Assembly: GCF_015355625.1 (NCBI RefSeq)
Contig: NZ_JACLAF010000011.1
Coordinates: 1 to 64,000, forward strand
Origin: Tamlana sp. I1
GTDB taxonomy: Bacteria > Bacteroidota > Bacteroidia > Flavobacteriales > Flavobacteriaceae
DNA: 64,000 bases
Direction: 5' to 3'
Positions 9,535 through 42,074 of this stretch are shown in pieces; the first letter of the stretch is position 1; every line of letters starts with the position of its first letter. Under the pieces are notes generated by a model. That model was given only the letters and a program-made list of their open reading frames with translations. It had not been told where the DNA came from and did not search any database. The position numbers and the translations under genes were made by a program.

Positions 9535-9556
9535 TACGTATAAATACTTAGTTTTG
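9535..9556 (+). promoter_or_regulatory. nirB promoter with 7-2-7 inverted heptamer
   Basis: TACGTAT-AA-ATACTTA at 9535-9550; the last TA begins the -7 box TAGTTTTG (9549-9556). A further element, AAATACGTAATTAT (9562-9575), lies downstream of the -7 box. The inverted heptamer with a 2-bp gap is the arrangement used by NarL/NarP. Its partner protein is inferred. Confidence 0.65.
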
Positions 9557-9663
9557 TTTTCAAATACGTAATTATGAAAGGCGTATATGTTAAAATCTAA
9601 GTTTTAAAAGGATTTAACATTGCGAATTACATCTGACCGATTTAACAAATTAAAACTATACAG

Positions 9664-12183
9664 ATGAAACACGTTATTGTTGTTGGAAACGGAATGGTTG
9701 GTTATAAGTTTTGTGAAAAATTTGTAGAGCAATCTAAAAATAAAGAATTTAAAATCACTGTTTTTGGTGAAGAGCCAAGACCTGCTTATGACCGCGTTCA
9801 TTTAAGTGAGTTTTTTGAAAACCAAGACGCTAAGGCTTTAGAAATGGCGCCTAGAGAGTGGTATGAGGAACACGGAATTGAGCTAATTACTAGCGAGCGT
9901 ATTACCGATATACATCGTTCTTCAAAGAAGATTACAACAACAAAAGATTTACACTATAAATACGATTATCTGGTTTTAGCAACCGGTTCTGCGCCATTCG
10001 TACCAAACATTAGTGGTATAGAAAAGAAAGGTGTTTTTGTTTATAGAACGATTGAAGATCTGGAAGACATGCTAGGTTATGCTAAAGAAGTTATTGGCGA
10101 CCGAAAAGAAACTGTTAAAGCAGCGGTTCTTGGTGGTGGTTTATTAGGTCTTGAAGCTGCGAAAGCGGTTAAGGATATGGGTTTCGAACCACATGTTGTG
10201 GAGTTTGCGCCTAAATTAATGCCAAGACAATTAGATACGCGTGGAAGTAAAGTGCTTCAAGAAAAAATTGAATCGTTAGGGATAAATGTGCATTTATCTA
10301 AAGCTACTAATAAAATTTTAGGCGACGATGTAATTACAGGTATGGAGTTTGGCGAGTACGATAAGATTGATGTTGAAATGCTTGTGGTTTCGGCGGGAAT
10401 TAGACCTCGTGATGAGCTAGGAAAAACCTGTGATTTAAAAATGGGCGTACGTGGTGGTATTGTTGTAAATAACAGAATGCAAACCTCCGATCCAGAAATA
10501 TTTGCCATTGGTGAAGTAGCGCTTTATAACAATATGATTTACGGTTTAGTAGCGCCAGGTTACGATATGGCTGAGGTTGCAGTAAATCAAATTATAGGAA
10601 ATACGGATGTTTTAATGGCTGAAGAAATTGATATGTCTACCAAATTAAAATTAATTGGTGTTGATGTAGCAAGTTTTGGTGAGCCGTTTATGCCAGTTGA
10701 AAAAGGCTATTCGATTATTTTCGAGAATAAAACAAAAAACTTATACAAACGTGTTAATATTAGTCATGATGGTAATTTGTTACTAGGAGGAATCTTAATT
10801 GGCGATGCTTCAGACTACAACATGTTTCATCAAATATATTTAAACGGATTACCAATTCCTGAGGATGCTGAAGAGTTAATTATTGGTGCAAGAGGCGAAG
10901 GAGGTTCTTCTTTCGGAAGCGTTTTAGATATACCAGATGCAGCACAAGTTTGTTCTTGTGAGAGTGTTACCAAAGGTGATATTTGCTGCTCAATTACCGA
11001 AGGTGGTTGCGAGAATTTAGGTGATGTTATTGCAAAAACTAAAGCAACAACAGGTTGTGGTGGTTGTAAACCAATGGTTGTCGATTTAGTAAACGAAACT
11101 TTAAAATCGCAAGGTAAAGAGGTTAAAGAGGTATTGTGTGAGCACTTTAGTTTTAACCGTCAGGAGCTTTACGATCTTGTAAAAGTGAATAAAGTTGCCG
11201 ATTACGACGAAGCTTTAAACCTTTTTGGTGAAGGCCATGGTTGCGAAATTTGTAAGCCTGCATTGGCATCTATTTTTGCGACAATTACTATGGAAACGCC
11301 AAACCGTCAAGTAGCAATTCAAGATACAAACGATAAGTATTTAGCTAATATTCAGCGTAATGGTACCTACTCTGTAGTGCCACGAGTTGCTGGTGGAGAA
11401 ATTACACCAGACCAGTTAATTATAATTGGTGAAGTTGCTAAAAAATACGATTTATATACAAAAATAACTGGTGGCCAACGTATTGATTTATTCGGAGCAC
11501 AAATTCATGAATTACCATTAATTTGGAAAGAATTAGTTGATGCCGGATTTGAAAGTGGTCATGCTTACGGTAAATCGCTTAGAACAGTGAAAAGTTGTGT
11601 AGGTTCTACTTGGTGTCGTTACGGTATGCACGAAAGTGTTACTTTTGCTATCGATATTGAAAACCGATATAGAGGCTTGCGTTCACCACACAAATTAAAA
11701 GGAGGCGTTTCGGGATGTATTAGAGAATGTGCCGAAGCTAGAGGAAAAGATTTCGGATTGATTGCTGTTGAAGGTGGATGGAATTTATATGTATGTGGAA
11801 ATGGTGGAGCAACACCAAAACACGCCATATTATTTGCAGAGCAGTTAGATGATGAAACTGCAATTAAGTACTTAGATAGATTCTTAATGTTCTACATTAG
11901 AACGGCAGGACCTTTAGTAAGAACTGCGCCTTGGTTAGAAAAATTAGACGGTGGTATTGAATACTTAAAGAAAGTTATTATTGAAGATTCTTTAGGAATT
12001 GCTGAAGAATTAGAAACTGAAATGCAAGGTTTGGTTAACAAATACGAATGTGAGTGGAAACAAGCTATCGAAGATCCAGAAATGATGAAACGTTTCAAGC
12101 ATTTTGTGAATTCTGATGATACTGATGATAACTTAGCGTTTGTTCCAATGCGTGATCAAAAAATGCCTAAGGCTTGGAATTAA
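9664..12183 (+). CDS. nirB: nitrite reductase (NADH) large subunit
   Basis: 839 residues, the usual length of NirB, which reduces nitrite to ammonium in the cytoplasm. Domains: FAD/NAD(P) oxidoreductase (about 1-400; VVGNGMVGYKFCE, VLGGGLLGLEAAKA), BFD-like [2Fe-2S] domain (about 435-475; CSCESVTKGD ... CGGCKP), a second BFD-like segment (GCEICKPAL), and ferredoxin-like half domain plus the siroheme/4Fe-4S core. The core ligands are CVGSTWC (about residues 644-650) and CIREC (about 685-689). nirD lies 355 bp downstream, separated by a structured repeat. A 7-2-7 operator precedes it. Confidence 0.96.
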   Translation: MKHVIVVGNGMVGYKFCEKFVEQSKNKEFKITVFGEEPRPAYDRVHLSEFFENQDAKALEMAPREWYEEHGIELITSERITDIHRSSKKITTTKDLHYKYDYLVLATGSAPFVPNISGIEKKGVFVYRTIEDLEDMLGYAKEVIGDRKETVKAAVLGGGLLGLEAAKAVKDMGFEPHVVEFAPKLMPRQLDTRGSKVLQEKIESLGINVHLSKATNKILGDDVITGMEFGEYDKIDVEMLVVSAGIRPRDELGKTCDLKMGVRGGIVVNNRMQTSDPEIFAIGEVALYNNMIYGLVAPGYDMAEVAVNQIIGNTDVLMAEEIDMSTKLKLIGVDVASFGEPFMPVEKGYSIIFENKTKNLYKRVNISHDGNLLLGGILIGDASDYNMFHQIYLNGLPIPEDAEELIIGARGEGGSSFGSVLDIPDAAQVCSCESVTKGDICCSITEGGCENLGDVIAKTKATTGCGGCKPMVVDLVNETLKSQGKEVKEVLCEHFSFNRQELYDLVKVNKVADYDEALNLFGEGHGCEICKPALASIFATITMETPNRQVAIQDTNDKYLANIQRNGTYSVVPRVAGGEITPDQLIIIGEVAKKYDLYTKITGGQRIDLFGAQIHELPLIWKELVDAGFESGHAYGKSLRTVKSCVGSTWCRYGMHESVTFAIDIENRYRGLRSPHKLKGGVSGCIRECAEARGKDFGLIAVEGGWNLYVCGNGGATPKHAILFAEQLDDETAIKYLDRFLMFYIRTAGPLVRTAPWLEKLDGGIEYLKKVIIEDSLGIAEELETEMQGLVNKYECEWKQAIEDPEMMKRFKHFVNSDDTDDNLAFVPMRDQKMPKAWN

Positions 12184-12273
12184 GGAAAAGTTAAAAGTGG
12201 AAAGTTAAAAGTTAAAAGTTTGTTTGCGGATGAAATTTAACTAATGACAAACACTGAAAATGGCAGACAGTTC

Positions 12274-12353
12274 GCGTTAGGGATTGAAGCGGCATCCTTT
12301 TTTGAGGTACGATAAAAAAGATATAGCGGAAAGCCCGACCCTTGTGGTAACGC
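12274..12353. ncRNA. structured repeat element between nirB and nirD (possibly flavo-1-like)
   Basis: GCGTTA (12274-12279) pairs with TAACGC (12348-12353). Inside are the hairpin GGAT/ATCC around TGAAGCGGC and the stretch AGCGGAAAGCCCGACC. I recall this wording from many flavobacterial intergenic regions. It may be the flavo-1 RNA family, which I cannot confirm. Around it, 12184-12273 and 12354-12538 hold only low-complexity AAAGTTAAAAGT and TTAAACG-type repeats. Confidence 0.5.
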
Positions 12354-12538
12354 CAATAAAATAATACAGTTGATTCGTTAAATCGATTATTTGTGTAATC
12401 GTGACATCGGTTAAACGTATTAACGATTAAACGCATAAACAGAATAAAAAAGTAGATTTGTTTATTTGAAACGTCGGTTAAACAATTAAACAGTTAAACG
12501 AATCAACATAATAAAAGGAATTAACAAAAAATAGAGAT

Positions 12539-12922
12539 ATGCAAGAGCAAGATATACTTAATCAATACCAATCTGTTTCAGAAGATAATGTTAAGGAGTG
12601 GTTTAAAGTAGGGGTGGTTGAAGATTTTCCTGAAAATAGCGGGGCCTGCATCAAGTATAAAACCAAACAAATTGCGGTTTATAACTTTGTAAGAACTGGA
12701 AAATGGTATGCGACTCAGAATTTATGTCCGCATAAAATGGAAATGGTTTTGTCTTTAGGGATGATTGGCGACAAAGATGGCGTTCCAAAAGTGGCTTGCC
12801 CGATGCATAAAAAGAATTTTTCTTTGGAAGATGGTTCGAATTTAGGAGGCGAAGATTTAAAAATTGCGACCTATCCTGTTAAAATTAAAAAGGGAAATGT
12901 GTATATTGGCTTTTCAGATTAA
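12539..12922 (+). CDS. nirD: nitrite reductase small subunit, Rieske type
   Basis: 127 residues with a Rieske-like fold. The cluster ligands CPHK (Cys-x-His) and CPMHKKNF (Cys-x2-His) are present, so this copy could bind a [2Fe-2S] cluster, unlike many enterobacterial NirD proteins that lack them. It partners NirB. DUF4202 follows after 22 bp. The long gap from nirB suggests processing or reduced coupling of the two subunits. Confidence 0.92.
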   Translation: MQEQDILNQYQSVSEDNVKEWFKVGVVEDFPENSGACIKYKTKQIAVYNFVRTGKWYATQNLCPHKMEMVLSLGMIGDKDGVPKVACPMHKKNFSLEDGSNLGGEDLKIATYPVKIKKGNVYIGFSD

Positions 12923-12943
12923 CGAAAAGTAAATATACATAAG

Positions 12944-13528
12944 ATGAAGCCTACAAGATTTGAAACCGCAATAGCCTTAATTGATAAAAAAAACGCAGAA
13001 GACACAAATACTTACCAGGTTTCTGGTTTGGATTATCCTAAAGAATTGTTGTACTCGCAACGTATGTCTAGGAAGTTATTGCAGTTTAATCCAGATGCTT
13101 CAAAAGCCCTTCAAATTGCAGCACGCGCCCAACATATTTGTCGTTGGAAAATAGCTAGAGACGAATATCCTATGGATCGTGTTGGGTATTTAAAGTGGCG
13201 TGAGACTCTTAAAAAAATGCACGCCGAAATAACGGCCGAAATTTTAACTCAAGTTGGTTATGATGCGCAGTTTGTAGACCGCGTTTCTTTGTTGATTAAT
13301 AAGAAACTTATTAAGAAAAATGAGGAAACTCAAATTCTTGAAGATACCGTTTGTTTGGTGTTTTTAGATTATTACTTCGAGGAATTTGCGGCCAAACACG
13401 ATGATGAAAAAATCATTGATATTCTTAAAAAAACCTGGGTTAAAATGTCTGATAAAGGCCATGAAGCAGCCTTAAAATTACCTTATTCAGATAAGAGTTT
13501 AGCCTTGGTAAAACAAGCAATTTCATAA
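12944..13528 (+). CDS. DUF4202 domain protein
   Basis: 194 residues matching DUF4202 across its whole length: the start FETAIALIDKKNAEDTN, ARAQHICRWKIARDEYP and RVGYLKWRETLKKMHAE. The conserved H/R/W pattern suggests a ligand- or metal-binding helical fold, but the role is unknown. It is commonly found beside nitrate and nitrite assimilation genes, as here between nirD and the sensor kinase. The stop lies 10 bp before the kinase ATG, so it is cotranscribed. Confidence 0.85.
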   Translation: MKPTRFETAIALIDKKNAEDTNTYQVSGLDYPKELLYSQRMSRKLLQFNPDASKALQIAARAQHICRWKIARDEYPMDRVGYLKWRETLKKMHAEITAEILTQVGYDAQFVDRVSLLINKKLIKKNEETQILEDTVCLVFLDYYFEEFAAKHDDEKIIDILKKTWVKMSDKGHEAALKLPYSDKSLALVKQAIS

Positions 13529-13538
13529 AGTGCAACGT

Positions 13539-15359
13539 ATGGCAAAGCGAGGTAATTCATTAGACCAAAGAACGTTTGATAAATTACGTCGCCTTTATAT
13601 TATTGCATTAAGCACCATTGCCGTTTCGGTAATTGTTAGCCAGCTACTTATACGTAATCACCTTAACGATCAGGCCACCGATTCTTCGGTTATTAACGTG
13701 GCGGGAAGGCAGCGTATGCTTAGCCAGAAACTCACAAAAGATGTGGTTTCCTTATCTTCGGAAACTGCTTTAGATAAAAGAATTTGGCTTAAAAATAAAA
13801 TAAAAGAAACTCTAAATCTTTGGGAGCTTTCGCATTATGCACTTCAAAATGGAAATGATAGTTTAGGGCTTCCTGAAAAAAACACATCGGAAATCCATGC
13901 GCGTTTTGCCATATTAAATCCTGTATTCGACAGGATTAACTTCGCTTCAAAAGCCATTATTACTAAAATTGAAAACAATCCATCTTTAAGCTTTTCTAAT
14001 TTTGCTTCGGAAGTAGAAGTTGTCAAAAATAATGAAGGCGACTTTTTGTTGATGATGGACGATATTGTGAATCAATACGATCTTGAGGCCGACAGAAAAG
14101 TAACGCGACTTAGACAGTTAGAAATGTGGTTAACTGGATTAACCTTATTAATTCTATTGGCTGAGTTTTTATTTATTTTTTGGCCCGCAGCAAAATCGGT
14201 TAAAGGGGTACTTACAGAATTATTATATGCCGAAAAACACGCCAAAAAAATGGCTTTTGATGCCGATGAATTAAGTATCGCTAAAGAAAAATCGATAAAA
14301 GAATTACGAGCACTTAGCCGTGCCATGGACGACACGCTGCTGTTTGCTAGAATTTTACCAAACGGACAAATTGTGCACATGGGCAATAAGTTTTCGCGTT
14401 TGTATAATTACTCGAAATTAAACGATAAAGGCCTGTTTTGGACGACACTTTCGCCGGTAGAAAATGAACAGTTGGCCATTGAGGATCTTATTGCAAAGCA
14501 TAAAAAAACGGGTTGGCAAGGTGAAGTAAAATCTACAACCAAAAATCATGTTGATGTGTGGTTAGAAATGGCCATAATACCCTATAGTCCTACTGAAGAT
14601 AAATCGGAAATACTTATTATCGCTTCCGAAATTACCGAAAGGAAAGTGGCGCAATTAGAAATTGCCAGACTTACTGCGGCAAGTTTTGAGGAAAAGATGA
14701 ACCAGCAAAAAATTATTTCGAGTAAGATTATTGAAAACCAAGAAAAGGAACAAAATAGAATTGCTAAAGACGTACATGATGGCATTGGGCAAATGCTAAC
14801 TGGGTTGAAATATAATTTAGAAAGTATCGATACCCAAGACATTGAAAAAGCAACTTCGAAAATTGAACATTTAAAAACCCTTACTACCGAAATTATAAAA
14901 GGGATTAGAACGGCGACCTTTAATTTAACGCCACCAGAATTAACCGATCATGGTGTGGTTCCTGCCATTGCGAAGCTTATTCAAGAATTATCGAAACTTA
15001 CTGGGAAGCAAATCATGCTTTTTAATAAAACCGATTTTAATCAGCGTTTAGATTCACTTACCGAAATAAATATTTACAGAATTACTCAAGAAGCCATTAA
15101 TAACGCTATTAAATATGCCGAATCTTCGCATATTCTAGTGTCTTTATCGCATAGTAAAAACATTTTAAGTATTGTAATTGACGATAATGGCAAAGGTTTC
15201 GATCCTAAAAAGGTTAAGCATATTAAAACTGGCGATGGTGGTATGGGAATGACCTTTATGCGCGAACGAATTAAATACATTGATGGCCGATTTTTTATTA
15301 GTTCTGAAAAAGGAAAAGGCACCCGAATTACTTTGAATATTCCTTTAAAAGAAGTGTAG
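13539..15359 (+). CDS. NarX-like sensor histidine kinase
   Basis: Membrane kinase of about 606 residues from ATG 13539; GTG at 13530 is an alternative. TM1 is about residues 15-35. A periplasmic PilJ/NarX-type domain follows with VINVAGRQRMLSQKL, which corresponds to the P-box that contacts nitrate/nitrite in NarX. TM2 lies near 190-212, then a PAS-like domain, HisKA_3 (AKDVHDGIGQMLTGLKYNLE, phospho-His near 413) and HATPase_c (DDNGKGFDP, GMGMTFMRERI). The response regulator gene lies one gene downstream. Nitrate sensing is inferred from the P-box and context. Confidence 0.88.
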   Translation: MAKRGNSLDQRTFDKLRRLYIIALSTIAVSVIVSQLLIRNHLNDQATDSSVINVAGRQRMLSQKLTKDVVSLSSETALDKRIWLKNKIKETLNLWELSHYALQNGNDSLGLPEKNTSEIHARFAILNPVFDRINFASKAIITKIENNPSLSFSNFASEVEVVKNNEGDFLLMMDDIVNQYDLEADRKVTRLRQLEMWLTGLTLLILLAEFLFIFWPAAKSVKGVLTELLYAEKHAKKMAFDADELSIAKEKSIKELRALSRAMDDTLLFARILPNGQIVHMGNKFSRLYNYSKLNDKGLFWTTLSPVENEQLAIEDLIAKHKKTGWQGEVKSTTKNHVDVWLEMAIIPYSPTEDKSEILIIASEITERKVAQLEIARLTAASFEEKMNQQKIISSKIIENQEKEQNRIAKDVHDGIGQMLTGLKYNLESIDTQDIEKATSKIEHLKTLTTEIIKGIRTATFNLTPPELTDHGVVPAIAKLIQELSKLTGKQIMLFNKTDFNQRLDSLTEINIYRITQEAINNAIKYAESSHILVSLSHSKNILSIVIDDNGKGFDPKKVKHIKTGDGGMGMTFMRERIKYIDGRFFISSEKGKGTRITLNIPLKEV

Positions 15360-15396
15360 TAAGACATACCTTTTAATAATACGTATTTTTTAATTG

Positions 15397-15777
15397 ATGA
15401 AACGAAAATTAATAAGTTCTGGTTCATCCTTTGAAGCAGAAATTGGTTATTCCAGAGCTGTGGTTCAAGGCGATTGGATATTTGTATCGGGAACAACAGG
15501 TTACAATTATAAAACCATGCAGATAAGTGATGATATTGTTGAACAAACCGAACAATGTCTGCTCAATATAAAAGACACACTAGAACAAGCCCATGCTAGT
15601 TTAGCAGATGTAGTACGCGTAACCTATATTTTGCCAGATGCTAATTTGTTTGAAGCCTGTTGGCCAGTTTTAAAAAAGTATTTTGGAGCAGCGAAACCGG
15701 CTGCAACCATGTTTTCGGCGGGATTAGCCAATGATAAAATGAAAATAGAAATTCAAGTAACAGCACTTAAAATATAA
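15397..15777 (+). CDS. RidA family protein (enamine/imine deaminase-like)
   Basis: 126 residues from ATG 15397. The fold markers are GYSRAVVQGDWIFVSGTTGY near the start, the RidA-type NIKDTLEQAHASLADVVRVTYIL, and the end KIEIQVTALK. RidA proteins hydrolyse reactive enamines such as 2-aminoacrylate, but several subgroups lack that activity, and the catalytic Arg is not obvious at its usual place here. It is inserted between the kinase and the response regulator. Confidence 0.85.
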   Translation: MKRKLISSGSSFEAEIGYSRAVVQGDWIFVSGTTGYNYKTMQISDDIVEQTEQCLLNIKDTLEQAHASLADVVRVTYILPDANLFEACWPVLKKYFGAAKPAATMFSAGLANDKMKIEIQVTALKI

Positions 15778-15778
15778 A

Positions 15779-15810
15779 TACGTAGTTTTTACTTAATTTT
15801 ATTATTTTTG
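15779..15810 (+). promoter_or_regulatory. narL-like promoter with 7-3-7 motif
   Basis: TACGTAG-TTT-TTACTTA (15779-15795) with TAATTTTA (15794-15801) aligned as at nirB. A second -7 box, TATTTTTG, lies at 15803-15810. The gap is 3 bp, not 2, and the left half differs by one base. Autoregulation is possible. Confidence 0.4.
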
Positions 15811-15828
15811 TACTTATATTTAGAATCT

Positions 15829-16494
15829 ATGGACATAATTAATGTTGTGCTTGCAGACGACCATGTTTTGGTGAGAGATGGCATAAAAGCACTTTTAGAA
15901 GATCAATCTGGAATTAAAGTTATTGCTGAAGCTTCAAACGGAAAAGAAGCCTTAGAGATTATAGCTTCTACGAAACCACATGTGTTGATCGTGGATATTA
16001 GAATGCCAGAAATGAACGGTATAGAGGTGGTTAAAGCTATTAATGATACGTACACCGACGTGCGTACTTTGGTGTTGTCTATGCACGATTCAGAAGAATA
16101 TGTTGTAAAGGCTATTCAAGCTGGTGCCGATGGTTATTTATTAAAAGGAGCAAGTAAAGAAGAGTTTTTAAAAGCGTTGACCAATATTGCTTCTGGAGGT
16201 AAGTATTTTACAGGCGATGTTTCGGCAATCATCATGAATAATTTTGTAAACGGAAACACAAATACCGAAGTTGTTACAGAAAAGAAGGTGAAAATTGATC
16301 CGTTTAATTTAACCAAACGCGAAAAGCAAATACTTAATTTAGTACTGCAATTAAAAAACAACAAGGATATCGCTGAAGAACTTAATATTAGTAAGCGAAC
16401 TGCTGAAGTCCATCGTTTTAATTTGATGAAAAAACTAGAAGTTAAAAACTTAATGGAACTTAGTAATAAAGCCAAAGAGTTTGATTTGGGCTAG
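15829..16494 (+). CDS. NarL/LuxR family response regulator
   Basis: 221 residues from ATG 15829. The start at 15808 would lie inside the -7 box and is rejected. The receiver domain has the acidic pair DD10-11, phospho-Asp56 (VLIVDIRMPEMNG) and Lys (LLKGAS). The LuxR HTH is NLTKREKQILNLV...NISKRTAEVHRFNLMKKL. With the NarX-like kinase it forms a likely nitrate/nitrite two-component system. The DNA elements with 7-2-7 inverted heptamers at five nitrate promoters match the geometry bound by NarL and NarP, making it the first candidate to bind them. Confidence 0.9.
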   Translation: MDIINVVLADDHVLVRDGIKALLEDQSGIKVIAEASNGKEALEIIASTKPHVLIVDIRMPEMNGIEVVKAINDTYTDVRTLVLSMHDSEEYVVKAIQAGADGYLLKGASKEEFLKALTNIASGGKYFTGDVSAIIMNNFVNGNTNTEVVTEKKVKIDPFNLTKREKQILNLVLQLKNNKDIAEELNISKRTAEVHRFNLMKKLEVKNLMELSNKAKEFDLG

Positions 16495-16570
16495 TCCTTA
16501 CTTTTTAACTTTATCTGCCCGTTTTTGATCATAAATTTAAACGACCTGTTCCCTATTGTAATATTTTATC

Positions 16571-16740
16571 TTATACTTTGCGAACTCCTGTTTACTAGAA
16601 GTCACAGGGGGTAGAGCAAGACTTAGCTATATTGGTTATTATGGCTAAGTCTAATTGAGTTTGATGATTTTCAAAATGTACCATGCTTATTATAAACTGC
16701 AATAGTATGGATTCTCAAAAATGTTTTAAGCAGTTTTTTT
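16571..16740 (+). ncRNA. candidate structured RNA between narL and narK
   Basis: A degenerate -7 box (TTATACTTTG, 16571-16580) precedes the hairpin CTCCTGT/ACAGGGG (16585-16610), the hairpin AGACTTAGC/GCTAAGTCT (16619-16652), and a terminator-like stem AAACTGC (16694-16700)/GCAGTTT (16730-16736) with a T-run. The narK promoter lies beyond, at 16871-16892. So this would be a separate small RNA, or the 3' tail of the narL transcript. It shares CTGT...ACAGGGG and TGGTTATT with the leader at 18588. Confidence 0.4.
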
Positions 16741-16843
16741 CCATAGAATGTATTTTAATATTTCAAATTTTTTTAATAAAATCGAGTCCTTTTAATAATT
16801 ATTCAAAAAGTCCTTTCATAAATTATTAAACTCACATTTTTAT

Positions 16844-16892
16844 ATAATTACGTATTTTTTGGATGATAATTACGTATTTATACTTAGTTTTG
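16844..16892 (+). promoter_or_regulatory. narK promoter with 7-2-7 inverted heptamer
   Basis: TACGTAT-TT-ATACTTA at 16871-16886 runs into the -7 box TAGTTTTG (16885-16892), the same spacing as at nirB. An extra ATAATTACGTATTT lies at 16844-16857. It is the reverse complement, over most of its length, of the extra element at nirB. Confidence 0.65.
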
Positions 16893-16942
16893 TATTGAAG
16901 AATATATGGTTTCTGTACTATAAATTTAAAAATACTATAACT

Positions 16943-18427
16943 ATGAGCACAACACAAGGCGCAAATAAAATACTATTTATAAACACTTTAGCTTTTACAT
17001 TCTGTTTTGCAGCGTGGTTGCTAAATGGAATTTTAGTTACTTTTTTAGTAGACAATCAAGTGTTTGATTGGAGTGGAGTACAAATTGGGTGGTTAATAGG
17101 TATTCCTGTGTTAACGGGTGCTATTTTTAGGTTACCAGCTGGTATTTTAACCGATAAGTTGGGCGGGAAGCCTGTTTTTGTTGCCTTATTATTATTGTGT
17201 GCGGTTCCTATGTATTTGTTGTCTTATGCCAACGACTTTTGGGCTTTTGCCTTATGTAGTTTAGGATTTGGTCTAGCAGGTGCTAGTTTTGCAGTTGGAA
17301 TTGCTTTTACTTCGGTTTGGTTTCCAAAAGAAAAGCAGGGGCTTGCTCTGGGAATATTTGGGGCAGGTAATGCTGGTGCCGCAGTAACAACATTGGTAGG
17401 GCCTAAACTTTTAAATTTCCTAACCGATAATAAAACAAATTTAGAGGGGTGGAGAGACATGCCAAAAATGTATGCTGCAGGTTTAGTTATCATGGCAGTG
17501 GTGTTTTTTTTAACCACTAAAAATAAAAAACCGGCATCAAGCTCTAAAAATTTAAAAGCGATGATGACACCACTTAAAAGTATTAGAGTATGGCGATTTG
17601 GTTTGTATTACTTTTTAGTATTTGGTTGCTTCGTGGCTTTTGCAGGTTGGTTGGTGCCATATTATACTAATGTTTACAGTTTAGATTTGGTAACCGCAGG
17701 AATATTAGCTTCATGTTTTAGTTTGCCTTCAGGGATTATTAGAGCCTTTGGTGGCTGGTTGTCCGATAAAGTAGGAGCAAGAAAAGTAATGTATTGGGTG
17801 CTTGGGTCTACCTTGGTTTTTAGCGCCATTTTAATTGTACCAAAAATGGATATTTATTCTGCAGGTAAGGGGGTTATGGCGAAAGCTTCAGGAGTCGTTA
17901 CAGATGTTACCGATACCTATATTGAACTCGAAGGTGTTAAGTATCCTATAAATGCTAAAACCGATAAACTAGCTCAAGCCGATGAAGAGTTTCATATTTT
18001 TCCAATTAAAGAATCTTGGCAAGAAGTGCTTGTTAAAGAAGGTGATACTGTTCAAAAGAAACAATTAATAGCTAAAGGTAATACACATATATATTTTCAA
18101 GCCAACCTTTGGATATTTGCTATTGTAGCTATCATAATAGGATCGATATGGGGTATTGGTAAAGCAGCCGTTTATAAGCATATTCCAGATTATTTTCCTG
18201 AAGAAGTTGGTGTTGTTGGTGGTATGGTTGGTGTGCTTGGAGGTCTAGGTGGTTTCATTTGTCCGATTCTTTTTGGATATCTTTTAGAAGGCACCGGTCT
18301 TTGGTCTAGCTGTTGGATATTAATGTTATTCTTGTCTGCAATCTGTTTAATATGGATGCATAAAGTGGTTCAAAGAATGGCCGATAAAGCAACGCCAGGA
18401 TTAGTAAATAAATTTGAAAGAAAATAA
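16943..18427 (+). CDS. NarK-type nitrate/nitrite MFS transporter with inserted domain
   Basis: 494 residues from ATG 16943. The longer start at 16859 lies upstream of the promoter and is rejected. It has the MFS fold with the nitrate-porter features GRLPAGILTDKLGGK-like (RLPAGILTDKLGGKPVF), GIFGAGNAGAAVTTL and GGMVGVLGGLGGF. Residues about 300-387 interrupt the C-terminal half with a soluble segment: ASGVVTDVTDTYIELEG, then VKEGDTVQKKQLIAKG. This reads like a lipoyl/barrel-sandwich or HlyD-type fold. Nitrate uptake or nitrite export is inferred from family and neighbours. Confidence 0.88.
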   Translation: MSTTQGANKILFINTLAFTFCFAAWLLNGILVTFLVDNQVFDWSGVQIGWLIGIPVLTGAIFRLPAGILTDKLGGKPVFVALLLLCAVPMYLLSYANDFWAFALCSLGFGLAGASFAVGIAFTSVWFPKEKQGLALGIFGAGNAGAAVTTLVGPKLLNFLTDNKTNLEGWRDMPKMYAAGLVIMAVVFFLTTKNKKPASSSKNLKAMMTPLKSIRVWRFGLYYFLVFGCFVAFAGWLVPYYTNVYSLDLVTAGILASCFSLPSGIIRAFGGWLSDKVGARKVMYWVLGSTLVFSAILIVPKMDIYSAGKGVMAKASGVVTDVTDTYIELEGVKYPINAKTDKLAQADEEFHIFPIKESWQEVLVKEGDTVQKKQLIAKGNTHIYFQANLWIFAIVAIIIGSIWGIGKAAVYKHIPDYFPEEVGVVGGMVGVLGGLGGFICPILFGYLLEGTGLWSSCWILMLFLSAICLIWMHKVVQRMADKATPGLVNKFERK

Positions 18428-18559: not shown

Positions 18560-18581
18560 TAAGTATTAATACTTAATTTCG
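18560..18581 (+). promoter_or_regulatory. nitrate reductase gene promoter with 7-2-7 inverted heptamer
   Basis: TAAGTAT-TA-ATACTTA at 18560-18575 is a perfect palindrome, and its last TA starts TAATTTCG (18574-18581), a weaker -7 box. Transcription would begin about 18588, leaving a leader of about 440 nt. Confidence 0.6.
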
Positions 18582-18587: not shown

Positions 18588-18882
18588 AGATGTAGTATTC
18601 TGTTAGTGGTATAACATCTTATTAACTCTAAAATTAGAGTCTAAACAGGGGAATACAGCTAATAAAAAGTTCTTATAAAGTGATGTTTAATCACGAATTA
18701 ATAAAAGTGAAAGAATGAAGTTGCAAGACATGTAACTTTTGCTACCGTAGTGTCTTATGGTTATTTCATAATTGGAATCATAGTGGTTGTGACTACGGTA
18801 GTTTTTTTTAAATCGACGTTTCAGCGAAAGCTGAAAATCAAGTAGAATTAGGTTGTAGCATTGCTCGAGATATCTAATTCTA
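18588..18882 (+). ncRNA. structured leader with internal terminator before the nitrate reductase gene
   Basis: Elements in order: GTATT/AATAC and CTGTTAG/CTAAACAG (18595-18656) enclosing ACTCTA/TAGAGT (18625-18640); GTGAT/ATCAC (18680-18694); AAGTTGC/GTAACTT (18718-18738); CTACCGTAGT/ACTACGGTAG (18742-18801) followed by eight T; TTTCAGC-GAAA-GCTGAAA (18819-18836); TAGAATTAG/CTAATTCTA (18843-18882). The fourth is an intrinsic terminator 220 nt after the predicted start. This could be an attenuator, a riboswitch, or a small RNA gene. I recognise no known class. Confidence 0.55.
18742..18809 (+). terminator. intrinsic terminator inside the leader
   Basis: A perfect 10-bp stem CTACCGTAGT/ACTACGGTAG with an inner TTATG/CATAA hairpin and a run of eight T at 18802-18809. 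No coding gene ends near it. Confidence 0.75.
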
Positions 18883-30957: not shown

Positions 30958-30958
30958 T

Positions 30959-33470: not shown

Positions 33471-33471
33471 T

Positions 33472-35814: not shown

Positions 35815-35816
35815 GC

Positions 35817-36509
35817 ATGAAAAAGAGACTAGGTATCATATCATTATTTGTAATTCTATTTATAGCTTTTATTGCTGTTTGGAGTTATAGTTATCAAATC
35901 GGACTTGAAGAAGCGTATATTCCCCTTGAAGATGATAATAGCGGAATTAAAGTAATTCCATCAGAATCTGGGGTTTTTGAACGTTCTCAATTTGCATTAG
36001 ATTATGCTGAAATGCCAATTGATGAAGCGCATCAACGCAGTTTGAAAACCTATTATAATAATAGAGCCTACCACGGTGCGCCACCAAGTATACCACATCC
36101 TGTAGCAAACGAGCGTAGTTTGGGCGGGAATACCTGTTTACAATGCCATCAAAATGGTGGTTTTGTAGAAAAATTCGATGCATACGCGCCTGTAACACCA
36201 CATCCCGAAATGGTTAATTGCCGCCAATGTCATGTCGCTCAAAAAAGCAATACGCTTTTTAAACCAGCTAATTTGGTTAAAGTAAATGCGCCAGAAGTTG
36301 GCGATAATAATGCTTTAATGGGAAGTCCGCCAATGATTCCGCACCAAATTCAAATGCGAGAAAACTGTTTGTCTTGTCACGCAGGACCTGCCGCTCCTAA
36401 GGAAATTAGAGTAACACACCCAGAGCGTGTGAATTGCAGACAATGTCATGTGCCTACAGATAAACCGGTTTCAGAAATAAAGGCTTTTACACGAACTAAT
36501 AGTAATTAA
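35817..36509 (+). CDS. napB: NapB-like cytochrome c with four CxxCH motifs
   Basis: 230 residues with an N-terminal membrane anchor or signal (ISLFVILFIAFIAVWSYSY). The NapB features SLKTYYNNRAYHGAPPSIPH, CLQCHQ, CLSCHAGPAAPKEIRVTHP and the His partners are present. CLQCH, CRQCH, CLSCH and CRQCH give four heme sites where classic NapB has two. It delivers electrons to NapA. The 2-bp spacing from napA shows coupling. Confidence 0.85.
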   Translation: MKKRLGIISLFVILFIAFIAVWSYSYQIGLEEAYIPLEDDNSGIKVIPSESGVFERSQFALDYAEMPIDEAHQRSLKTYYNNRAYHGAPPSIPHPVANERSLGGNTCLQCHQNGGFVEKFDAYAPVTPHPEMVNCRQCHVAQKSNTLFKPANLVKVNAPEVGDNNALMGSPPMIPHQIQMRENCLSCHAGPAAPKEIRVTHPERVNCRQCHVPTDKPVSEIKAFTRTNSN

Positions 36510-36510
36510 A

Positions 36511-37131
36511 ATGATTAGAAAGAACTACATATATATTCTGGCTTGTACATGTGTTTTAGTGCTTTTTTCATGTAAACATGGCGAAGGCGAATACCATGGT
36601 GTGATAGAAAAAATTAACGCCGAAGGTAAAAACTATCATGGTACTTCTATTTCATCAGAACAATATATAGAAGGTATTAAAACTATTGAAATTACAGAAG
36701 ACGGACACACCTTTTTAATACCGGAAAGAAAAGGGCAAATACGATCGTATGCTTGTACCGAATGTCATTCGAAACCTTTGGAAGACATGCAAAGTAAAGG
36801 CATAAAGGAAGCGCATTGGGATATTAAAATTGTACATGCCAATGAAAACGCTATGAATTGCGTAACCTGCCACAACCCCAATAACATGGATCAATTAAAA
36901 AGTTTGACAGGAAAAGATATCGATTTTAATAAGAGTTATAATTTGTGTAATCAGTGTCACTCTAAACAATTTGAAGATTGGAAAGGTGGTGCACATGGTA
37001 AACGAATTGGCGGTTGGGCGCCACCAAGAGCATCCATGACCTGTGTGAATTGTCATAACCCACATAAACCACACTTTGAGTCTAGGTGGCCTTCACGTTT
37101 TAATACGCAAACAGAGTTAGAAAGAAAATAA
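36511..37131 (+). CDS. tetraheme cytochrome c lipoprotein
   Basis: 206 residues with a lipoprotein signal (CVLVLFSCKHGEG). Heme motifs CTECH, CVTCH, CNQCH and CVNCH bind four c-type hemes. There is no NapC/NirT-type transmembrane anchor. It probably shuttles electrons between the quinol-oxidising NrfC/NrfD-like pair and NapB. The partner assignment is inferred from the operon. Confidence 0.85.
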   Translation: MIRKNYIYILACTCVLVLFSCKHGEGEYHGVIEKINAEGKNYHGTSISSEQYIEGIKTIEITEDGHTFLIPERKGQIRSYACTECHSKPLEDMQSKGIKEAHWDIKIVHANENAMNCVTCHNPNNMDQLKSLTGKDIDFNKSYNLCNQCHSKQFEDWKGGAHGKRIGGWAPPRASMTCVNCHNPHKPHFESRWPSRFNTQTELERK

Positions 37132-37167
37132 TTAAAAACTGTATAAAAGTTTTATAATATTTAAGAT

Positions 37168-38316
37168 ATGAGCAGCAATAACAAAAAATGGTTTTCTTTA
37201 AATTTAGGAGGTAGGAACAAAGAATCTTCTGGTTCTTGTGGCTGCGGAAAAACTTCAGGAGGCTGTGGTTCTGGTTCTAAACCGAATACCATAGATTCCG
37301 ATGGTTATCAAATGACAGATGATGAATTTGCTGAAGCCGCCATCAATGCATCAATAGGCGAGGAACGTAAAAAAGACGGTTTCGAACAAGTTTTTGATGT
37401 TAAAATGGACCGACGAACCGCTTTTAAAAAACTAACAGCAAGTTTGTTAATTGGGGCAGGAGCGGTAAGCACGTCTTGTAGTGTAATTGGTAGTGATGAA
37501 GGTAAAGAAAAAGCACAAATAGACTGGGAAGAGCAATTTAAGGGCAACTATAAAATGATGTCTGATGAAGAAAAGAAAGCTACCGTTGAAAGGCTAACAC
37601 GTTCATACGAATTAAGAACGGGGAAAAATATAACGATGTCTTCAAAAAATGCTGAAGAAGATGTGTTGTTTGGCTACGCTTTTAATATTTCGAAATGTCA
37701 AGGTTATATGGATTGCGTAAATGCCTGTGTTGAAGAGAATAACCAGGATCGTGATTCGGAAATGCAATACATAAGAATTCATGAAATGAAAGATGGTCAA
37801 GGCTTTAATTTTAATGAAGCCGACGATAATTATTATCATGAAGTTCCTGCCGAAGGACATTTTTATATGGGAACACAGTGTTTTCATTGCGATAATCCGC
37901 CATGTGTTGAGGTTTGTCCTGTACAAGCGACATGGAGAGAAGATGATGGTTTGGTGGTTGTAGATTACGATTGGTGTGTAGGTTGCCGTTACTGTATGGC
38001 TGCTTGTCCTTACGATGGTAGACGCTTCAACTGGAGCAAACCTGAAGTTCCAGAAAAGGAAGTAAACCACAATCAGCATTATTTAGGAAACCGCATGCGT
38101 AAAAAGGGTGTTATGGAAAAATGTACCTTCTGCGTGCAACGTTCTAGATCGGGTAAAAACCCAGCTTGTGTTGAAGCCTGTCCTACAGGAGCACGTATTT
38201 TCGGAAACTTATTAGATCCTAAAAGCACCATTAGATGGGTGCTAGAGAATAAAAAAGTATTTAGATTAAAAGAAGATTTAGGAACAGAACCTAAGTTCTG
38301 GTATTTCATGGATTAG
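37168..38316 (+). CDS. NrfC-like ferredoxin with four [4Fe-4S] clusters and internal Tat motif
   Basis: 382 residues. Residues 20-35 are rich in Cys and Gly (SCGCGKTSGGCGSGS). DRRTAFKKLTASLLIGAGAV, a Tat-like segment, begins near residue 72, unusually far in, as seen in Bacteroidota Tat-variant complexes. Four cluster motifs follow: CQGYMDCVNAC, CFHCDNPPCVEVCP, CVGCRYCMAACP and CTFCVQ...CVEACP. It probably docks on the NrfD-like protein to pass quinol electrons outward. The role is inferred from NrfCD/PsrBC. Confidence 0.85.
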   Translation: MSSNNKKWFSLNLGGRNKESSGSCGCGKTSGGCGSGSKPNTIDSDGYQMTDDEFAEAAINASIGEERKKDGFEQVFDVKMDRRTAFKKLTASLLIGAGAVSTSCSVIGSDEGKEKAQIDWEEQFKGNYKMMSDEEKKATVERLTRSYELRTGKNITMSSKNAEEDVLFGYAFNISKCQGYMDCVNACVEENNQDRDSEMQYIRIHEMKDGQGFNFNEADDNYYHEVPAEGHFYMGTQCFHCDNPPCVEVCPVQATWREDDGLVVVDYDWCVGCRYCMAACPYDGRRFNWSKPEVPEKEVNHNQHYLGNRMRKKGVMEKCTFCVQRSRSGKNPACVEACPTGARIFGNLLDPKSTIRWVLENKKVFRLKEDLGTEPKFWYFMD

Positions 38317-38329
38317 AGTGTTGTGGAAT

Positions 38330-38860
38330 CGTTTAATCGTGTCATTGATATCACGTTTACACGCATCAACAAATTAGCACAGAAAGGACGGGAGACAGTT
38401 GACGGGAGACAGGAGTTAGCTAGTTTTAAAAAAAATAGGTTGAATTGTTTAACTGTTTAATCGTGTCATTGATATCACGATTACACGCATCAACAAATTA
38501 GCACAGAAAGGACGGGAGACAGTTGACGGGAGACAGGAGTGAGTTAGTTTTAAAAAAATAGGTTGAATTGTTTAACTGTTTAATCGTGTCATTGATATCA
38601 TGTTTACACGCATCAACAAATTAGCACAGAAAGGACGGGAGACAGTTGACGGGAGATAGGAGTGAGTTAGTTTTAAAAAAATAGGTTGAATTGTTTAACT
38701 GTTTAATCGTGTCATTGAAAACACGTTTACATGCATCAACAAATCAACGCATAAACAGAGTAAAAGTAACGCTAAGTAAAAAATGTTGAATTGTTTAACT
38801 GTGTCATTGAAAACACGGTTACACGCATCAACAAATCAACAATTACACATAATTAGAATA
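38330..38860. repeat. 123-bp tandem repeat array before the NrfD-like gene
   Basis: CGTGTCATTGATATCACG-type starts recur at 38338, 38462, 38585 and 38708, with a partial copy near 38801. The period is 123-124 bp. Each copy holds GTTTAATCGTGTCATTG, an ACACGCATCAACAAATTAG block, GGACGGGAGACAGTTGACGG and AAAAAATAGGTTGAATTG. The copies differ by a few bases. The array fills the 553-bp gap, so the NrfD-like gene may have its own transcript. Confidence 0.92.
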
Positions 38861-38869
38861 ATTAAAAAC

Positions 38870-40093
38870 ATGAGTGTATTTAAGGTTTTTAGAAGTTTAG
38901 TTAAGGATAGTTTAGATACCATAACCCATGGGTCGTTAAAATACCACATTTGGATGGGGGTATTAACTTTTATCATGTTGGTTGGTATGTATTGCTATTC
39001 CATCCAATTGGAGGAGGGTTTAAGTGTAACAGGTATGACCGATCGTGTAAGCTGGGGACTGTATATTTCGAATTTTACGTTTTTAGTTGGGGTTGCTGCT
39101 GCAGCCGTCATGCTGGTTATGCCTACCTATGTCTTGCATGATGTCGATTTTAAGCAAGCTGTTTTAATAGGTGAAGGACTCGCTGTTGCGGCTTTAATTA
39201 TGTGTTTGGCTTTTGTAATTGCGGATATGGGAGGTCCGTCGGTTTTATGGCATATGATTCCGGGGATAGGTGTGTTTAATTTTCCGAATTCCATGTTAAC
39301 CTGGGATGTTATCGTACTTAATGGCTACTTGTTTTTAAATATTACCATTCCATTATATATTTTATTTAGACACTATCAAGGTAAAGAAGCAAAGTCAAAA
39401 ATCTATGTACCAGGAGCTATTCTATCAGTGTTTTGGGCTGTTGGTATTCACTTAGTTACGGCATTTTTATATCAAGGACTACAGGCGCGTCCGTTTTGGA
39501 ATAATGCGCTATTAGGGCCTCGTTTTTTAGCCTCGGCTTTTGCCGCAGGACCTGCACTAATTATCTTGGTTTTAGCAATTATTAGAAATTTTACCGAATT
39601 TAAAATACAAGATAAAACTCTTAGAAAAATAGCTATGGTTGTTACCGTAGCCGCTCAAATAAACTTAATTATGTTGGTTTCGGAGTTGTTTAAAGAGTTT
39701 TATGCTCCTACGCACCATAGTGAAAGTGCTTATTATTTGTTTTTCGGGCTGCATGGAAAAGATGCTTTATTACCATGGATTTGGACTGCTATCCCTTTAA
39801 ACGTCTTGGCAACTGTGTTATTAACCTTTCATAAGTTTCGTAATAATTTCAAAATCCTATTCTTTTGTTGTTTTATCTTATTCATAGCCATTTGGATTGA
39901 AAAAGGATTTGGCTTAATCGTTCCTGGGTTTATTCCAGGACCTTACGGTAAAATTGTAGAATACACACCAACTGGAATAGAAATAGGAGTGACGCTTGGT
40001 ATTTGGGCCATGGGCGCATTCATATTCACCATTCTAGCAAAAACAGCGATTGGTATTGAATTAGGGAATTTAAGATATAAAGAAAAGCAGTAA
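38870..40093 (+). CDS. NrfD/PsrC-like membrane quinol dehydrogenase subunit
   Basis: 407 residues from ATG 38870; the longer start at 38783 reads through repeat DNA and is rejected. It has about ten hydrophobic helices. The pattern YHIWMGVLTFIMLVG, LSVTGMTDRVSWGLYISNF and PNSMLTWDVIVLNGYLFLN matches NrfD/PsrC quinol-binding subunits. With the NrfC-like ferredoxin it likely replaces NapC or NapGH as the quinol oxidase of Nap. Confidence 0.88.
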   Translation: MSVFKVFRSLVKDSLDTITHGSLKYHIWMGVLTFIMLVGMYCYSIQLEEGLSVTGMTDRVSWGLYISNFTFLVGVAAAAVMLVMPTYVLHDVDFKQAVLIGEGLAVAALIMCLAFVIADMGGPSVLWHMIPGIGVFNFPNSMLTWDVIVLNGYLFLNITIPLYILFRHYQGKEAKSKIYVPGAILSVFWAVGIHLVTAFLYQGLQARPFWNNALLGPRFLASAFAAGPALIILVLAIIRNFTEFKIQDKTLRKIAMVVTVAAQINLIMLVSELFKEFYAPTHHSESAYYLFFGLHGKDALLPWIWTAIPLNVLATVLLTFHKFRNNFKILFFCCFILFIAIWIEKGFGLIVPGFIPGPYGKIVEYTPTGIEIGVTLGIWAMGAFIFTILAKTAIGIELGNLRYKEKQ

Positions 40094-40123
40094 TCGCATT
40101 ATAATTTCATATTTAAAGGCTTT

Positions 40124-40160
40124 AAAAACATCAATTGAATAATTTCGGTTGGTGTTTTTT
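40124..40160 (+). terminator. terminator after the nap operon
   Basis: AAAAACATCAA pairs with TTGGTGTTTTT (one G-T pair), and the T-run continues to 40160. Confidence 0.7.
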
Positions 40161-40196
40161 GTTAGACTCTCAAAAATTATCGATTATCATAAAAAC

Positions 40197-40218
40197 TAAG
40201 TATTATTACGTATTTTCG
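40197..40218 (+). promoter_or_regulatory. FNR-like gene promoter with 7-2-7 inverted heptamer
   Basis: TAAGTAT-TA-TTACGTA at 40197-40212. The final TA begins TATTTTCG (40211-40218), aligned as at nirB and narK. The start codon is at 40237. Confidence 0.5.
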
Positions 40219-40236
40219 TTTTAAATACTTCTTTTT

Positions 40237-40986
40237 ATGTCACTAAATACTTCACATTCTAAATTAAGAAAAAAGGCACTTACCGATGTGTCTTGTGAAG
40301 CTTGTACCAATGAAAATTGTTTAATAAATAGAAGTTTACAATCCATCTCTAATACTGAATTCGCCAAAAACAAAAGCACCTTAAAATGTAAAAAAGGACA
40401 GCAATTTATAATGGAAGGCGCTCCAGTAAATGGCTTGTTTTTTATTTTAAAAGGTACGGTAAAAGTTTTTAGAACAGGCATAAACGGCCGCGAACAAATT
40501 GTGCGTTTTGCCAAAGAGGGAGAAATTATTGGTCATCGTGGTTTTGGTACCGAAGAGTATTATTCTATTGGAGCAATTGCACTGCAGGAGTCTGTTTTGT
40601 GTTATTTTTCTAAAGATGATCTTCAGGATGCTTTACTTGAAAATCCTAAGTTTGCTTACGATTTAATGTTGTTTTACGCAAACGAATTAAACCGTAGTGA
40701 AAACAAAGTCAAATCCATTTCGCAAATGACGGTTCGCGAACGCGTTATCGATACTTTATTATATCTACATCGTAAATTTGGTGATATAAACGGATTTTTA
40801 AGTTTGCCATTAAGTAGAAAAGAATATGCCGATTACGCCGGAACTACCGAAGAGCAGGTTATTCGAATTTTTTCAGCATTGAAAAAAGAAAAGCTTATTT
40901 CGGCTAAAGGAAAAAAAATTGCAGTATCTAATATTCAACTTTTAAAGAGTGAAATTAGTGAGCATAATTATTTCTTAGATGCCTAA
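40237..40986 (+). CDS. Crp/Fnr family regulator with FNR-type cysteines
   Basis: 249 residues: cyclic-nucleotide-type sensor barrel (about 45-150), dimer helix (about 155-180) and a winged HTH with SRKEYADYAGTTEEQVIRIF. Cysteines at 20, 23 and 28 (CEACTNENC) plus C122 nearly copy the FNR set C20, C23, C29, C122 that holds the oxygen-labile [4Fe-4S] cluster. C51 is extra. It is thus a candidate oxygen or NO sensor controlling nitrate genes. Autoregulation through the 7-2-7 site is possible. Confidence 0.88.
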   Translation: MSLNTSHSKLRKKALTDVSCEACTNENCLINRSLQSISNTEFAKNKSTLKCKKGQQFIMEGAPVNGLFFILKGTVKVFRTGINGREQIVRFAKEGEIIGHRGFGTEEYYSIGAIALQESVLCYFSKDDLQDALLENPKFAYDLMLFYANELNRSENKVKSISQMTVRERVIDTLLYLHRKFGDINGFLSLPLSRKEYADYAGTTEEQVIRIFSALKKEKLISAKGKKIAVSNIQLLKSEISEHNYFLDA

Positions 40987-41076
40987 TTGGAATTAAGCAA
41001 TTCCTTATTAATACGCTTCTAATTTATTAACCTTACTTTTGAAGCATCATAATATATTATCATCAACCTTTAGTTT

Positions 41077-41469
41077 ATGTCATATCAAGATGAATTTGTT
41101 CTTTTCTGGGAACAGGTAAAAGAAAGTTTCGAAGCCGGGCGTTTTGCTAAATTAACTATGGCAAAGACTATTGGTAAGCCAAACTTAAAAAACATATTTG
41201 TTAGACCCTTGTCTTCTAAAGATGATTTACAAGTTCTAGTGAAATTACGCTACCAATCTAAAGAGACCGAAGATGAAGAAAAAGAACTTACTTTAGACGA
41301 AGCTTTTGTGTTTTTAAAACCATACCTGAAAACTTCTTTTTTATCTGTGATTTTATTTACCACTACAAAAGATGTGACTTTCAAAATCAATAAAAAAGGG
41401 GCTGGGCGTATTTCTGAGACAGCACCAACTTTCCGTGATGTTATACCGCCAAAGCGAGATTTGGAGTAG
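41077..41469 (+). CDS. stand-alone N-terminal domain of a methyltransferase-like family
   Basis: 130 residues. FWEQVKESFEAGRFAKLTMAKT, PLSSKDDLQVLVKLRYQSKE and LKTSFLSVILFTTTKDVTFK resemble the N-terminal domain of a class of SAM-dependent methyltransferases, as I recall it. The protein stops at PPKRDLE, where the methyltransferase part would begin, and no such part follows in the 620-bp gap. It may be a real single-domain form or a truncation. Low certainty. Confidence 0.45.
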   Translation: MSYQDEFVLFWEQVKESFEAGRFAKLTMAKTIGKPNLKNIFVRPLSSKDDLQVLVKLRYQSKETEDEEKELTLDEAFVFLKPYLKTSFLSVILFTTTKDVTFKINKKGAGRISETAPTFRDVIPPKRDLE

Positions 41470-41878
41470 GTTAAGGGGGAACACAGGACAAGAACGTCTG
41501 TTTTGTTTTAGCGAAATTCAGCTTTTTTCTGCCTAACACAAAAGCGAGTTAGTATGTTGTTTTCATGAATCCAATTCAAATAAACTTCTCGTCTGCTCTC
41601 GAAGACCCTTTCAAAAGGAATGAATGCCTTGTTATCATGAATCCACAATTAGTGTCTACGTCAAGAAATATTGAATCCTTATTTTATTAAACACAACTTT
41701 AGATAATGATTTGTAAACACTGTCTCTTAAATTCAATTTAAAATTTTAGTGCTAGTGAGAATCAATAAATATTCTAACAAAACCAATCGAAGTTTATCGT
41801 ACGATAATAAAGTAAGTTTCTCATTTATCTCCTAAATCATCTAAAACTAAGTAAAATTATTACAGTTAAAATGTTTTT

Positions 41879-41938
41879 CACGTAAAATTACGTAGATGAT
41901 TACTAGTTGTTTTTAATGGTGTTAAGTATTGATATTTA
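41879..41938 (+). promoter_or_regulatory. two upstream 7-2-7 motifs before nrtA
   Basis: CACGTAA-AA-TTACGTA at 41879-41894 and TAAGTAT-TG-ATATTTA at 41923-41938 resemble the operator at 42053. They lie 174 and 130 bp upstream of it and have no aligned -7 box. Confidence 0.4.
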
Positions 41939-41952
41939 GCTGTTTGTGAATT

Positions 41953-41978
41953 AAACCTGTTTTATAGCAGGTTTTTTT
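41953..41978 (+). terminator. terminator without a gene before nrtA
   Basis: AAACCTG/CAGGTTT with a T-run to 41978. No coding gene ends here, so it ends a short RNA or shields nrtA from upstream transcription. Confidence 0.65.
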
Positions 41979-42037
41979 GTGTTCTAAAAAGAGGTTTGTA
42001 CATGGTGTTCATCATGAAATAGAACTAAGACTACTTA

Positions 42038-42074
42038 TATATTTGTCACAGATAAGTATTAATACTTAGTTTTA
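42038..42074 (+). promoter_or_regulatory. nrtA promoter region with 7-2-7 inverted heptamer
   Basis: TAAGTAT-TA-ATACTTA (42053-42068) runs into TAGTTTTA (42067-42074), the aligned -7 box. TATATTTG at 42038-42045 is a second, better -7 box. If it is used, the heptamers would lie at its start site. nrtA begins at 42093. Confidence 0.6.

Follow-up and report, generated by a model that had tools for sequence, protein, structure and literature searches.

The regulators NarL and NarP of enterobacteria recognize heptamers with the consensus TACYYMT. NarL of Escherichia coli activates ogt from −44.5, −67.5 and −77.5 (PMC7419079), and in Bacteroidetes a nitrate sensor–regulator class has been described as narHK/narRR (PMC8199190). 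HcpR2 of Bacteroides is associated with another palindrome, GTAAC-N4-GTTAC (Rodionov 2005, PMC1274295); these reports, like the others named below, are cited from partial texts. Here, a stretch of 64,000 nucleotides of Tamlana sp. I1 (Flavobacteriaceae; contig NZ_JACLAF010000011.1, positions 1 to 64,000, referred to as the window) was analyzed, in which promoters of a nitrate cluster carry the 16-bp palindrome TAMGTATNNATACKTA, made of two inverted heptamers with 2-bp spacing (7-2-7). On sequence grounds, the NarL-like response regulator whose gene follows downstream of nirB very probably uses this palindrome as its operator.

Scanning the window at up to one mismatch gave six matches, whereas shuffled sequences gave 0.07 on average and one at most:

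9535..9550, + strand, palindrome of the nirB promoter, TACGTATAAATACTTA, spanning about −26 to −11
16871..16886, + strand, palindrome of the narK promoter, TACGTATTTATACTTA
18560..18575, + strand, palindrome upstream of nas, TAAGTATTAATACTTA; the same promoter stands before a second narK in several relatives
40197..40212, + strand, palindrome of the FNR-like gene, TAAGTATTATTACGTA, one mismatch
41923..41938, + strand, weaker sixth site, upstream of nrtA, TAAGTATTGATATTTA, one mismatch
42053..42068, + strand, palindrome of nrtA, TAAGTATTAATACTTA, spanning about +4 to +19 should the upstream −7 box be the one in use

An earlier note on this DNA had listed five of them, and all five 16-mers were recovered with the same coordinates and letters, four as exact matches and the FNR-like gene site with its one mismatch; the sixth was absent from that list. 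Across the 4.04 Mb genome, the exact palindrome occurs four times, always within the nitrate cluster, and the reversed-pattern control is not found. Since relaxing the search to one mismatch gave eight matches (six inside the window) versus five for the reversed pattern, the genome-wide specificity rests on the exact matches. The palindrome is a real signal.

The presence of the palindrome was then compared with that of its candidate readers in 249 genomes of the family. Cutoffs of E 1e-60 for the NarL-like protein and of 1e-200 for nirB found both in the same 63 genomes, 46 of which also encode an orthologue of the FNR-like protein (E up to 1e-80; the next group shows 38% identity or less), while the other 17 have the NarL-like protein only. 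Exact copies were present in 46/46 genomes with both regulators (150 matches, reversed control 1), in 16/17 with the NarL-like protein and no FNR-like orthologue (35 matches, control 5) and in 33/186 without the NarL-like protein (51 matches, control 25), the last two groups differing with a Fisher p of 2e-10, uncorrected for kinship. At the nirB promoter, the palindrome was found at up to two mismatches in 63/63 NarL-positive genomes (33 exact, 28 with one and 2 with two), and the 17 genomes without the FNR-like orthologue all kept this site at up to one mismatch. The scans of the genome and of the relatives thus place the exact palindrome in the cluster and show it tracking NarL across the family, which supports the NarL-type operator proposed in the earlier note: the palindrome follows the NarL-like regulator and not the FNR-like protein.

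The nirB and narL regions of 62 relatives were examined alongside those of the window, skipping loci L171 and L172, which overlap other loci. At up to one mismatch, 190 matches were obtained, 171 of them within 500 bp before named cluster genes, none inside a named cluster gene and 19 elsewhere; since these regions had been selected because they surround the cluster, 171/190 is not a genome-wide share.

In the sequences compared, the recognition helix of the regulator and the half-site letters change together. The helix common to the 63 family proteins reads S-[KR]-R-T-x-E-[VT]-H-R-[FY]-N, and position 201 is occupied by V in 42 of the genomes and by T in the remaining 21. At its third base, the half-site had A in 154 and C in 42 cases in the V genomes, and C in 100, A in 36 and G in 2 cases in the T genomes (kinship uncorrected), a difference present in genomes with and without the FNR-like orthologue alike. 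In the alignment, E-V-H-R-F stands here where E. coli NarL has K-V-H-V-K, residues that presumably contact DNA.

Outside the family, nirB and NarL come apart. Class-wide, nirB occurs in 23/396 genomes, 17 of them in other families, and a NarL orthologue accompanies it in three of these 17 (61, 57 and 50% identity). Those three have the palindrome at the nirB promoter with one, two and three mismatches, respectively; in the three-mismatch genome, six TACGTA hexamers lie within 220 bp, out of eight half-site hexamers in the 5.5 kb locus. The helices of the palindrome-bearing genomes of other families are SRRTAEVHRFN, SVRTVEAHRFS and SRRTVETHRFN. In the other 14, the best NarL-like match reaches 44% or less, with none at E 1e-30 in one genome, and 13/14 have three to five mismatches at best, the same as the reversed control. 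A sensor–regulator pair stands beside nirB in 3/14, with helices SVRTVDNHRAN or SPNTVANQRAS and without the palindrome, and two of these three have a different 7-2-7 inverted repeat, TAGTTA...TAACTA, near nirB. Such differing 7-2-7 inverted repeats, TAGTTAAGATTAACTA and TAGTTACAATTAACTA, were noted about 33 bp before nirB at loci L309 and L307, which belong to another family and have a NarXL-like pair next to nirB; they are perhaps the same 7-2-7 frame with other letters.

A set of 80 named loci gave a similar division: 15/15 with a NarL at 49–79% identity carry the palindrome with one mismatch at most, and 1/65 with a NarL at 46% or less has a single one-mismatch match. Individual loci are reported where a match or nitrate genes were found, and some of the named loci (L183/G137 and L192/G180) are probably not independent of the numbered genomes. 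Named carriers include Snuella, Tamlana, Robertkochia, Flavobacterium denitrificans, Maribacter, Aquimarina, Polaribacter and an Ichthyobacteriaceae metagenome-assembled genome.

The genes concerned are the following:

9664..12183, + strand, nirB, target gene, heading the run nirB-nirD-DUF4202-narX-(ridA)-narL
13530..15359, + strand, NarX-like sensor kinase (Pfam: PilJ, PAS, HisKA_3, HATPase_c)
15808..16494, + strand, NarL-like response regulator, proposed binder
40237..40986, + strand, FNR-like regulator of the Crp/Fnr type, alternative candidate binder and probable member of the regulon

The NarX/NarL-like pair that had been recognized in the cluster was borne out by matches to Pfam domains and to PDB entries. 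The regulator combines a receiver (PF00072) with a LuxR/GerE domain (PF00196), and its best match in the PDB is NarL (1a04, E 9.3e-34). Residues D17, D18, D63 and K113 of the receiver, which we take to be those of the phosphorylation site, are invariant across 20 aligned NarL-like proteins. The kinase carries a PilJ domain (PF13675, residues 47–137, E 1.1e-13), which would assign it to the PilJ-type nitrate-binding class, and gave no HAMP or GAF-like Pfam match at E 0.001. In the FNR-like protein, an N-terminal C-x2-C-x4-C, present in 30/30 orthologues read, suggests an iron–sulfur sensor. The DUF4202 gene between nirD and narX (12944–13528) adjoins nirD in those relatives for which the gene order was inspected, and a Flavo-1 RNA (RF01705, 53.5 bits) lies at 12271–12344 between nirB and nirD. 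The nirB leader (9574–9663) exceeds that of most relatives by 90 bases, with an in-frame ORF of 8 codons beginning where relatives start nirB.

In the mechanism that we infer for binding, nitrate signal and sign of control, a dimer of the NarL-like regulator would occupy the two 7-base half-sites, 2 bp apart, in the fashion of NarL, with its base preference shifted to TA[A/C]GTAT in place of the enterobacterial consensus. At nirB, narK, nas and the FNR-like gene, the dimer would sit inside the core promoter, with helix-phased half-sites around it. Nitrate would be sensed by the NarX-like kinase and passed on as the phosphorylation state of the regulator, which would switch nirB, narK, nas, nrt and the FNR-like gene.

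The placement of the palindrome was examined against the flavobacterial sigma-A box, TAnnTTTG at −12 to −5 (PMC9723704). Predicted −7 boxes and additional half-sites in the window are:

9549..9556, + strand, predicted −7 box of nirB, TAGTTTTG, TA common to box and palindrome
16885..16892, + strand, predicted −7 box of narK, TAGTTTTG, TA common to box and palindrome
18574..18581, + strand, predicted −7 box of the nas leader promoter, TAATTTCG, TA common to box and palindrome
40211..40218, + strand, predicted −7 box of the FNR-like gene, TATTTTCG, TA common to box and palindrome
42038..42045, + strand, conserved predicted −7 box of nrtA, TATATTTG, a perfect box upstream of the palindrome
9565..9570, + strand, additional TACGTA half-site, downstream of the nirB palindrome
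16849..16854, + strand, additional TACGTA half-site, upstream of the narK palindrome
42032..42037, + strand, half-site TACTTA abutting the nrtA −7 box

It had been claimed that at all five promoters the palindrome ends in the TA of the −7 box and so keeps a fixed position. Both parts stand for nirB, narK, nas and the FNR-like gene, where the palindrome covers −26 to −11 with its center at about −18.5. At nrtA, the shared TA is doubtful and the fixed position does not hold: the box sharing the TA of the palindrome would be TAGTTTTA, and in 15/28 nrtA sites of relatives a box lies 29–30 bases upstream of the last TA of the palindrome. If that upstream box is used, the palindrome falls near +11. 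In the relatives, TAnnTTnG on the last TA was found at 46/64 nirB, 13/27 narK and 12/32 nas sites (box-offset counts at these three and at nrtA refer to sites with full 86-base flanks), and among FNR-like gene promoters the palindrome is present with no more than one mismatch in 25/30 orthologues, of which 19 show a strict TAnnTTTG at the shared TA. The fixed position also fails for many nas promoters of one clade, that with T at helix position 201, in which 7/16 nas sites have a TAnnTTGY box, a type named SM5 (PMC9723704), 8–9 bases further downstream.

The half-sites around the palindrome keep regular distances as well. At nirB, they lie at offset −33 in 26/61 and at +30/31 in 27/61 aligned promoters, and outside nirB at about −21 to −24 and +20 to +22. 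Phasing at 10.5 bp beyond that of random offsets was found in 4/4 gene groups tested (kinship uncorrected), and the nirB promoters hold 260 half-site hexamers versus 20 reversed ones, again uncorrected for kinship.

A TTG at −33 with spacing 20 was present in 0/68 palindrome promoters versus 14/83 background TAnnTTTG promoters, and with spacings of 17–23 in 24/83 background versus 4/68 palindrome promoters (shuffled expectation 0.139 and 0.081), a comparison of modest weight between related rows, uncorrected for kinship. With that modest weight, no −33 element is retained where the palindrome sits on the −7 box.

At nas, the palindrome at 18560 lies about 450 bp from the gene. In between, at 18741–18811, a 68-base element is 82–93% identical to the 3′ end of the second narK of relatives, is more conserved than its flanks and folds as a hairpin with a run of eight T after it. 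A regulatory RNA was considered for this hairpin and rejected, since its sequence corresponds to the end of a lost narK; the distance of the promoter from nas is explained by the remnant which that narK left between them.

From the fixed position, the earlier note had drawn either repression or activation by spacer distortion. The missing −33 element leans toward activation, and the nrtA palindrome near +11 toward repression. Activation, with the NarL-like dimer taking the place of the missing −33 contact, is slightly favored since no −33 element is kept, the registration is base-exact in four promoter families and nitrate genes are expected to be nitrate-induced. The fuller form of this proposal, in which a dimer at −26 to −11, base-exact to the −7 box, activates by replacing the −33 contact of sigma and phased half-sites extend the array, is put forward tentatively; no description of such a core-promoter geometry for a NarL-family regulator was found in the literature searched, as far as the partial texts go.

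Repression fares best among the other explanations, and we regard it as possible but rather doubtful. The NarL-like dimer would then block RNA polymerase and be removed upon nitrate, either through a kinase of opposite polarity or by binding when unphosphorylated. Sites between about −26 and about +19, and thus over the core promoter, would suit a blocking role, and two further points count against activation: the position of the nrtA palindrome, and the repression of frdA by E. coli NarL from −4/+6 (PMC4549865). Blocking, however, does not require the base-exact registration seen in the four promoter families, nor does it sit well with the absence of the −33 TTG in contrast with background promoters. 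A sign of control that differs from promoter to promoter is unlikely.

As to the reader of the palindrome, several observations weigh against the NarL-like regulator. NarL and nirB are inseparable in the family, being present in the same genomes, and their separation therefore rests on the 17 genomes of other families. One of these, G390, lacks a NarL orthologue and has a one-mismatch match 229 bp before nirB. The V/T difference arose by one change on the NarL tree and so counts as one contrast with the half-site letters. In addition, the 33 NarL-less family genomes with exact copies have about twice the control count. Finally, the enterobacterial pattern TACYYMT-N2-AKRRGTA fits 0/5 sites at up to two mismatches, and its 10 matches in the window, versus a shuffle mean of 7.7, are at chance level; a plain enterobacterial NarL site was thus rejected. 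Of the NarL-type heptamer claimed at first, the 7-2-7 frame stands and the TACYYMT letters do not: because that pattern fits no site, the letters are taken to have changed with the frame kept.

The inseparability of NarL and nirB would also suit another regulator that always accompanies both and reads the palindrome. This is improbable: in other families, nirB without a NarL orthologue goes without a site in 13/14 genomes, nirB with one has it in 3/3, and the half-site letters track the NarL helix. The FNR-like protein (40237) is less probable still as the reader and was rejected, since, for all that its gene lies in the cluster under a promoter with the palindrome, its recognition helix is conserved among orthologues and the inner AAGTA-N4-TACTT has what we take to be the half-site spacing of an FNR site, the palindrome does not depend on its gene: the nirB site is kept in all 17 NarL-positive genomes that lack the orthologue, and exact copies in 16 of them, although five have no match to this protein even at E 1e-30 and the other 12 only a relative of about 38% identity or less. 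The earlier note's rival thus loses to the NarL-like regulator.

Other candidates and sites were inspected. A family-wide repeat present regardless of NarL was rejected, since only 33/186 NarL-less genomes carry it, with 51 matches versus 25 in the control. When 10 NarL-less loci and one further region were opened, no nitrate genes were recognized by eye, and some matches were intragenic; a PilJ domain occurs in 3/13 NarL-less genomes with at least two matches, and the one inspected (G030) showed an exopolysaccharide-like setting. The acnB gene was dismissed as a shared target, with matches at up to one mismatch in 3/17 genomes having the gene (30 searched) and none in the genome of the window; the three sites are at L323, L332 and L334 (aconitase, named by eye). 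In agreement with the earlier note, the nap and molybdenum cofactor promoters lack the palindrome: 0/6 window matches precede such genes. The napA gene occurs in 25/63 genomes, with a distribution that does not follow the FNR-like gene, and upstream of it the best matches have two to five mismatches (four genomes with two), as in the reversed control (two to five, one with two). In G150 (L051 1501–1516), an exact palindrome stands near nas, before a gene identified by eye as globin-like, and in the Tamlana genome itself a one-mismatch site (L008 1501–1516; C31:150446) lies about 100 bp before an sdhC-looking gene, with half-sites nearby, and may be due to chance.

For the two-component systems by which Bacteroidota sense nitrate, and whose sensors have been catalogued (PMC8199190), the palindrome supplies an operator and a regulon that can be tested; in the open-licence literature searched, mostly titles and abstracts, no operator was named for them. 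It would also tie regulator specificity to a few residues of the recognition helix, and provide a system for studying how a regulator sitting in the spacer controls the RNA polymerase of Bacteroidota with its unusual −7/−33 promoters.

Compared with known systems, the locus resembles NarX-NarL/NarQ-NarP of E. coli in its receiver and GerE regulator closest to NarL, its PilJ-type sensor, its nitrate and nitrite target genes and its 16-bp 7-2-7 inverted heptamers (PMC4549865, PMC7419079). It differs in the half-site letters, in the E-V-H-R-F helix, in placing sites within the core promoter, unlike ogt with its sites at −44.5 and upstream, and in that the presence of the palindrome is independent of FNR. 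The sensor and regulator class and the adjoining nitrate genes are like those of narHK/narRR, as are the PAS domain and the lack of HAMP or GAF-like domains in the sensor; that account deals with sensors and gene order in the text available (PMC8199190), whereas an operator is proposed here. The palindromes read by Crp/Fnr proteins such as FNR and HcpR are likewise short and placed before nitrogen-oxide genes (PMC1274295), but have other letters, and the presence of the palindrome here is not tied to the FNR-like gene. The system thus resembles NarL in its targets, its partner and its 7-2-7 frame, and departs from it in the half-site letters and in the place of the site inside the core promoter.

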